The notes under the pieces are model-generated. The model made no database searches, was not told the DNA's origin, and saw nothing but the letters and a program-made list of their open reading frames with translations. Position numbers and translations under genes: made by a program. This document shows, one piece after another, positions 31,764-33,554 of a stretch of 37,540 nucleotides of DNA (its first letter is position 1; the number at the start of each line of letters is the position of its first letter). The DNA is from Fibrobacter sp. (GTDB lineage: Bacteria; Fibrobacterota; Chitinivibrionia; Chitinivibrionales; Chitinispirillaceae). The stretch is from assembly GCA_012515615.1 (NCBI GenBank), contig JAAYYB010000169.1:1-37540 (forward strand). The letters are read 5' to 3'.

Positions 31764-32327
31764 ATGAGTGCTTTGGATCTTATCCAGTCGGAAACTACAC
31801 AGAGAATGCAAAAGGCAATAGAGAGTCTTAAAAAAGATCTCTCAAGAATCAGAGCTGGAAGGGCCAGTCCGGCGCTTCTGGATGGATTGACTGCTGATTA
31901 TTATGGCTCTCCTATGCCGATTAACCAGATTGCAAATATTTCTGTTCCAGACCCGCGTATGATCGTTGTTCAGCCGTGGGAAAAAAAGATGCTTACACCC
32001 ATTGAGAAAGCGATTCAGACATCAGATCTGGGGTTAAATCCTCAGAATGACGGAAATATGATTCGCCTTCCGATTCCGCCGCTTTCAGAAGAGCGCCGCA
32101 AGGACCTCTTCAAGAACTGCAAAAAAGTCGGTGAGGAGAGTAAGGTTGGTATCCGGAATATCAGGCGCGATTCAAATGAAAAGCTCAAGAAAGCGGAAAA
32201 GGATAAGGATGTCACTCAGGATGAATCAAAGAAGGGTATGGATGATATCCAGAAATTGACTGATAAATTTATTAAAACGGTCGATGAGCTTCTTATCAAC
32301 AAAGAAAAAGAGATAATGGAACTCTGA
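31764..32327 (+). CDS. frr: Ribosome recycling factor
   Basis: RIRAGRASPALLDGLTADYYGSPMPINQIANISVPDPRMIVVQPWEK. Confidence 0.97.
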   Translation: MSALDLIQSETTQRMQKAIESLKKDLSRIRAGRASPALLDGLTADYYGSPMPINQIANISVPDPRMIVVQPWEKKMLTPIEKAIQTSDLGLNPQNDGNMIRLPIPPLSEERRKDLFKNCKKVGEESKVGIRNIRRDSNEKLKKAEKDKDVTQDESKKGMDDIQKLTDKFIKTVDELLINKEKEIMEL

Positions 32328-32360: not shown

Positions 32361-32397
32361 AAATGCCGGAGAACTAAAAAACTCCGGCATTTTTTTG
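32361..32397 (+). terminator. Rho-independent terminator after frr
   Basis: ATGCCGGAG-aactaaaaaa-CTCCGGCAT followed by a T7 tract. Confidence 0.88.
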
Positions 32398-32556
32398 TGT
32401 GTGGTGAATTTTGAAGGTTACGATACCAACGCCGATGCTGATTCCGGCCCGGCAAGGAAAAACACTGGTGTTTGTAAAGGGAATCTGTGTGGCATGGTCG
32501 CCTCGATCGTGTTTTGCATTGCCCTTGCCACGTGGAAGCAGGCTTGTGTATATGGC

Positions 32557-32729
32557 TCATACCTGACTTATGCACCCGGATCAGGGCGAATTGCACTTAT
32601 CCCTTGTGCATAAAGGCTTTCACAAATCTTGATGTACCACCGGTGTGGTGCACCTGCGATTTGTTCAAGCCTTTCTACTACAAGGCCTAAACGTACTTCG
32701 CCCTTCCCGGATGCATAAGTTAGGTCATA
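32557..32729. mobile_element. MITE-like inverted-repeat element (163 bp, 32562-32724) with candidate TCATA target-site duplication
   Basis: Left end CCTGACTTATGCACCCGG pairs with right end CCGGATGCATAAGTTAGG (rc CCTAACTTATGCATCCGG, 16/18 identical). Imperfect complementarity continues to a centre at CCAC-CGGT-GTGG. TCATA occurs immediately outside each end (32557-32561, 32725-32729). Confidence 0.65.
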
Positions 32730-32846
32730 TCATCTTTTTTCGCAGAACGTATATTTAAAAATCTATATTCGTTAAATTACGTCACCAGCCGGAATCTACG
32801 GCAACTTGTAAAAGCGTTCCGTATATCAGGAAAAAATACTCAAGAG

Positions 32847-33554
32847 ATGAACATTCCCACGCATATTGGAATTATAATGGATGGTAATGGACGGTGGGCC
32901 CGGCAGAGGGGTCTGCCCAGATCAGCCGGGCATCGTGCAGGAACTGATGCGACGCGGGAGATAGTACGTGCCTGCGGGGAGCTGGGGGTTTCTTATCTGA
33001 CCACATATGTCTTTTCTGCAGAAAACTGGGGCCGACCCAGCACAGAAGTTTCCTTACTGATGGATCTTCTGGTGGAGATGACAAAAAAAGAGATCTCCAA
33101 CTTGAATGCAAACAATGTCCGGTTAAGGGCAATAGGTGACCTCTCGCGTGTTCCTTCAAAGACCCGTAAAGCCCTTCTGAATGGAATTGAAGAGACAAAG
33201 AATAATACCGGCCTGAATCTTAATCTGGCTATAAGCTACGGGGGGCGATCCGAGATTATTTCTGCAGTCAGGGAATTTGCCAGAGATGCAGTCCGGGACC
33301 CATCCCTGATTGATAAACTTGAGGAATCATCATTCGGAAAATATCTCTATACAAAAGATATCCCGGATCCGGAGCTTATTATCAGAACAGGCGGAGATAA
33401 GAGAATAAGCAATTTTCTGCTTTGGCAGGCTGCATATTCAGAGCTTTATTTTACTGATGTCTTATGGCCTGATTTCAACAAAGACAGCCTGGTTAATGCG
33501 ATAGAAGATTTTAACAGACGCGATCGCAGGTTTGGAAAGGTAAAAGAGTCATGA
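32847..33554 (+). CDS. uppS: Isoprenyl transferase (undecaprenyl diphosphate synthase)
   Basis: HIGIIMDGNGRWARQRGLPRSAGHRAG, TTYVFSAENWGRP, PELIIRTGGDKRISNFLLWQAAYSELYFTD. Confidence 0.97.
   Translation: MNIPTHIGIIMDGNGRWARQRGLPRSAGHRAGTDATREIVRACGELGVSYLTTYVFSAENWGRPSTEVSLLMDLLVEMTKKEISNLNANNVRLRAIGDLSRVPSKTRKALLNGIEETKNNTGLNLNLAISYGGRSEIISAVREFARDAVRDPSLIDKLEESSFGKYLYTKDIPDPELIIRTGGDKRISNFLLWQAAYSELYFTDVLWPDFNKDSLVNAIEDFNRRDRRFGKVKES

Follow-up and report, generated by a model that had tools for sequence, protein, structure and literature searches.

A dispersed palindromic MITE, probably mobilised by an IS1380-type transposase, between frr and uppS in a Fibrobacter sp. genome

The gap between frr and uppS in a contig of Fibrobacter sp. 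(the window, 37,540 nucleotides) carries a near-full-length palindrome of 163 bp at positions 32562-32724, with TCATA on either side. We are practically certain that this palindrome is a copy of a MITE, on account of the copy number of its family, its terminal repeats, the 5-bp duplications that flank many copies and an empty orthologous site. The fuller account, that the copy was mobilised in trans, likely by a transposase of the IS1380 type, landed between frr and uppS and then decayed, is in our judgement very probable. As far as database searches go, the MITE family appears to be new, and it represents a kind of element that is already known. Judged by RpsB, the nearest named genomes are MAGs of the Fibrobacterota, one from Fibrobacter sp. 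and one from Chitinispirillia, at 79-80% identity.

Read on the window strand, the locus runs TCATA, CCTGACTTATGCACCCGG ... CCGGATGCATAAGTTAGG, TCATA, with the 163 bp of the element in between, and its termini are complementary at 16 of 18 bp (Table 1). A previous reading made from the letters of this DNA (hereafter the sequence-only reading) had reported the palindrome, its 16/18 ends and the flanking TCATA, and all of these details could be confirmed; the other copies in the genome agree with the window copy to the first and the last base that it had named. Because the element is repeated genome-wide, neither the palindrome nor its bounds can be attributed to chance. The element, below the limit of about 600 bp for a MITE, contains no ORF of at least 80 aa and no transposase gene. 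The window copy folds whole into one long hairpin of -82.3 kcal/mol, against -39.6 +/- 3.9 kcal/mol for 200 dinucleotide shuffles (z = -10.85), in agreement with the folding that had been expected of it.

Table 1 Features of the frr-uppS region of the window.
Feature	Positions	Strand	Basis or remark
frr	31764-32327		flanking gene, left of the element
Probable intrinsic terminator of frr, TGCCGGAG-N10-CTCCGGCA-T7	32364-32396	+	read from the sequence; upstream of the insertion
Left TSD copy, TCATA	32557-32561	.	perfect 5-bp repeat
Palindromic MITE, 163 bp	32562-32724	. (orientation arbitrary; window strand as reference)	folding and genome copies
Left terminal inverted repeat, CCTGACTTATGCACCCGG	32562-32579	+	203 genome matches with up to 3 mismatches
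Central hairpin, GTACCACCGGTGTGGTGCAC	32634-32653	.	sequence and folding
Right terminal inverted repeat, CCTAACTTATGCATCCGG on the - strand	32707-32724	-	sequence and genome end scan
Right TSD copy, TCATA	32725-32729	.	perfect 5-bp repeat
TATATT motif, likely -10-like element of the uppS promoter	32750-32755	+	20 bp downstream of the insertion
uppS	32847-33554		flanking gene, right of the element

A similarity search of the element's own genome, a 5.05 Mb draft in 430 contigs with 6.6% contamination, returned 40 places on the query strand with 80-100% identity. The search that had been suggested with the sequence-only reading thus reveals a dispersed multicopy element and not a single-copy sequence. 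When the terminal repeats were sought with at most 3 mismatches, 203 matches were found in the 5.05 Mb (104 forward and 99 reverse), whereas the reversed pattern used as a control gave 0 forward and 1 reverse. The pairing of ends and the census of copies were performed on 0.94 Mb, about a fifth of the genome, in 75 contigs chosen such that nearly all contained matches. This portion yielded 60 paired elements and 42 full-length copies, the latter about 71-96% identical to the window copy. The window copy shares 94% identity with their consensus, which is 165 bp long; several other copies have identical termini save for a G/A difference at position 4. Two length classes, of about 144-169 bp and about 57-70 bp, are accompanied by paired elements of odd lengths (32, 38, 87, 94, 101, 132 and 140 bp). 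By eye, several short forms look as though the long form had lost an internal segment between short direct repeats, e.g. AAGGGA or AAGTGC, and we infer that the short forms mostly arose in this way. The small form may nevertheless have a long history, since it also occurs, at ~62-68 bp and decayed, in G003, a genome from a different genus within the same family. According to a crude ORF test, 51 of the 60 elements are intergenic and their orientation is unbiased relative to the genes. One contig breaks off precisely where a MITE copy has its right terminus (G000:C306:9417-9579); these repeats thus interrupt the assembly, and the true copy number is probably higher.

Both flanks could be read for 59 elements, and 24 of these have perfect 5-bp flanking repeats, whereas re-pairing the flanks 20,000 times gave a mean of 3.07 and a maximum of 11. 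By size, perfect repeats flank 16/33 full-length and 6/20 short elements. Only one element shows a flank match over 6 bp, indicating that the duplication length is 5 bp rather than 4 or 6. The target follows the pattern T-(A/T)-N-(A/T)-A (TWNWA), with T at position 1 in 105 and A at position 5 in 106 of 118 cases. The proposal that TCATA is a 5-bp TSD of the window copy is therefore sustained by duplications across the family (24/59 against 3.1 expected).

For the copy at C360:12112-12274, we found an uninterrupted orthologous site in a genome of the same genus (G001), where a single CCATA stands in place of TCATA-element-TCATA; the left-hand alignment of the two loci exceeds 300 bp and continues across the junction. 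At the frr-uppS junction, neither G001 nor any of at least ten further relatives with the two genes contiguous carries the element. In G001 the right flank of this junction aligns from the duplicated word (TCATT), and the left flank is too diverged; the empty site at frr-uppS itself is, on this alignment, half shown. For the copy in C299, too, the right flank alone aligned with G001. The empty-site comparison proposed earlier thus gave a one-word empty site for the C360 copy and, for the window copy, absence of the element next to one aligned flank. Conservation of the element at frr-uppS in distant relatives, which the sequence-only reading had named as the case that would speak against a MITE, was not seen, as these relatives lack it. 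More broadly, the full element was matched in none of 30 relatives, and a few decayed small elements occur in two other genera of the same family. An exact 20-mer from the core was absent from the GTDB species genomes (a set from which the element's own genome was possibly left out) and from viral contigs, and blastn against plasmids and phages detected no similarity to the element.

Numerous short intergenic palindromes of several sizes could also be expected of REP/REPIN-type palindromes, which a single-strand HUH (Y1) transposase mobilises. HUH insertions are not known to duplicate their target. Here, exact 5-bp duplications are far above chance, the terminal inverted repeats extend to the last base, and the empty site holds a single copy of the duplication. 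We consider the REP/REPIN reading to be refuted by the 5-bp duplications and give it a negligible probability. The stability of the hairpin raises a different alternative, namely a conserved structured RNA (a long hairpin sRNA or riboregulator) at frr-uppS, or a functional hairpin-RNA family at many loci. In addition to the z value given above, two-sided changes are weakly in excess among the copies (24 cells versus 16.0 +/- 4.4 in shuffles), as such an RNA might produce. Against it, the orthologous frr-uppS junctions of the relatives examined are without the element, and no Rfam family reached its threshold, the best being a weak microRNA-precursor match of 28.6 bits where the cut-off is 160. 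Moreover, the paired fraction across 39 copies (0.898) equals that of shuffled ones (0.897), terminal, interior and mismatched columns all deviate equally from the consensus, by ~10%, and the copies have no preferred orientation relative to genes. This even decay, with almost no compensatory change, gives no sign of a conserved RNA function and fits inert copies, so that an RNA function is very improbable. The long hairpin RNA contemplated in the sequence-only reading accordingly finds no support, since no Rfam family matches at threshold and the two arms decay independently.

The arms of the consensus, derived from 39 full-length copies, contain eight transversion mismatches, all of them T/C, or A/G when the opposite strand is read. 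Three tandem pairs, at consensus positions 20-21, 39-40 and 59-60, account for six of these, and two are single, at 30 and 50; the spacing is thus ~9.5-10.5 bp, roughly one per helical turn, with tandem pairs ~19-20 bp apart. On the other strand, the tandem TC/CT mismatches correspond to 5'-GA-3'/5'-GA-3'. The pattern was noticed post hoc, and the mismatch columns are no better conserved among copies than other columns. That the hairpin mattered to the active ancestor, so that its structure was under selection while the MITE was active, seems to us an improbable reading; if it were true, the mismatches could reflect a strand-specific single-strand structure (ssDNA or RNA) or could keep a long palindrome viable. 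The pattern may instead be a relic of the palindrome's origin. Strand-specific wobble pairing was also considered, as the minus-strand consensus folds better (-109.5 versus -91.1 kcal/mol), and it was dropped because transition mismatches split only 5 versus 1 (p = 0.22), with the copies pointing in the opposite direction (143 versus 99).

With regard to the mobilising enzyme, an IS1380-type transposase is the probable candidate, in view of three features: the MITE has CCT ends, its target duplication measures 5 bp, and IS1380 elements from a related genus agree with its end at 12/14 positions. The MITE ends begin with CCT on both sides. Ends starting with CC(T/C) and a target duplication of 4-5 bp characterise IS1380 elements. 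In a genus of the same family, IS1380 copies open with CCTGAATTATGCAT or CCCGAATTATGCAT, ~159 bp before the transposase match, and IS1380 left ends match the MITE end CCTGACTTATGCAC at 12/14 positions in the genome G009 and 11/14 in the genome G015; for one comparison, a 12/14 match has p = 3e-6. When related-genus copies at different loci are compared, their mutual homology begins 4 bp outside the left end, and the right ends of the G009 and G015 copies were not found. Among described members of the IS1380 family, ISEcp1 has the ends CCTAGATTCTACGT and 5-bp repeats, one of which is TCATA (PMC7864471), and IS1247 generates a 5-bp duplication (PMC3281130). The own genome contains only one IS1380 gene, which is decayed, with three in-frame stops, and whose relatives are distant; GTTGAATTATTCACCCGG, just before its ATG, matches the MITE end at 14/18 positions, and its right end is not recognisable. 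Across this gene and four other DDE_Tnp_1 loci of the draft genome, we found no intact transposase, IS1380 or other, with the MITE ends; the four other loci have no matching ends. Likewise, no convergent end pair at 1-3 kb with matching duplications, as expected of a full-length parent, was present in the 0.94 Mb, and a scan of the IS1380 loci of 60 relatives for both MITE ends gave no autonomous element. As the genome is a draft of many contigs with some contamination, an autonomous copy could be missing from the assembly. Since no autonomous IS1380 with the same ends was found in the genome, membership in IS1380 is likely and not established. The IS1380-like parent guessed in the sequence-only reading is hence favoured by the ends and the TSD and is still without its autonomous element, and the search for an IS with the same TIR met only the decayed gene and its left-end-like motif.

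The competing explanation is that a transposase outside IS1380 (e.g. one of IS1634/IS4 type, or from a DDE family not yet described) moved the MITE and has since disappeared from the genome or is missing from the assembly. IS1634 elements likewise give 5-6-bp duplications, the own genome is without an intact partner, and the 30 relatives are without a full-length match, all of which would suit such a mobiliser. It is opposed by the 12/14 end match to IS1380 of a genus of the same family and by the 14/18 match lying directly before the start codon of the own decayed IS1380 gene, and the IS4-like element that was examined has unrelated ends (TAGGGGCC...). We regard a mobiliser outside IS1380 as unlikely.

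Several further observations concern transposase genes. At three different loci in G009 and G015 (L182:1342, L200:1342 and L190:1342), IS1380 copies have the left end CC(T/C)GAATTATGCATAAA with CTAG directly before it, which suggests that these copies prefer a CTAG target. A match in G015, CCTGACTTTAGCAC, near IS1380 fragments was not counted, as it points away from the gene. The IS4-like transposase (DDE_Tnp_1) of the own genome (L112, G000:C389:12826-13569) has inverted repeats TAGGGGCC...GGCATACGTGTTAAGTTAAGC; it may be an intact IS and is unrelated to the MITE.

Under an IS1380-type origin, a DDE transposase supplied in trans, most likely of that type, would recognise the ends CCTRACTTATGCACCCGG and move the element. 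Insertion would occur into an AT-rich 5-bp target (T-A/T-N-A/T-A) that is duplicated in the process, TCATA in the present case, and the window copy would have inserted beyond the frr terminator and ahead of the uppS promoter. Point mutation and internal deletion after insertion would then have led to the shorter size classes.

ERIC is nearly fully self-complementary, and the element resembles it in that almost its entire length is self-complementary; it differs from ERIC in sequence, size and target, and probably also in the transposase family. ERIC and RUP use a TA target, and the new sequence family, with its 5-bp TWNWA target and IS1380-type ends, is in these respects unlike known MITEs. 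It shares with the prokaryotic MITEs reviewed to date, i.e. ERIC, Correia/NEMIS, RUP, Chunjie and others (PMC10969869), a short, non-coding sequence with terminal inverted repeats, target duplication, high copy number, a mainly intergenic location, a strong hairpin, and truncated and internally deleted variants. With the IS1380 family (ISEcp1, IS1247, ISPme1) it has in common the CCT ends and the 5-bp duplication, and it differs from IS1380 insertion sequences by the lack of a transposase inside and by a body that is one long palindrome. In the literature searched, no MITE with an IS1380 parent is named and Fibrobacterota MITEs are seemingly undescribed. For this phylum, the results define a MITE family whose boundaries are clear, whose target preference has been measured and for which an empty site is known, and they tentatively tie MITEs to the IS1380 family, whose best-known role is the mobilisation of beta-lactamase genes. 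They also call for caution in annotation, as the frr-uppS hairpin should not be taken for a regulatory RNA. The biology is otherwise that of an ordinary mobile element.

At the insertion site, a GC stem and T run after frr were also seen by eye in several relatives; a consensus terminator scan, with a loop limit of 8, missed the frr candidate, whose loop is N10. TATATT precedes uppS in 12 of 13 orthologous intergenic regions, and from this recurrence it is likely to be a conserved -10-like promoter element of the phylum. The window copy is probably neutral at frr-uppS, although an effect of the element on the upstream portion of the uppS promoter is conceivable. For the remaining ~150 bp of the gap on the left side of the MITE (32416-32561), no clear counterpart exists in relatives, where the frr-uppS gap mostly measures 140-300 bp, and this stretch may be a second, older insertion.

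Elsewhere, G001 retains a lone right end of ~23 bp (L209:1490-1518; C222:3794-3811). Reading CCTGACTTATGCACCCGGGAAGG on the gene strand, it forms the leader of a gene whose product resembles, by eye, a sugar-phosphate-isomerase-like protein, and it contributes part of the probable ribosome-binding site (GGGAAGGAGG-CGAC-ATG), so this MITE end has possibly been exapted.
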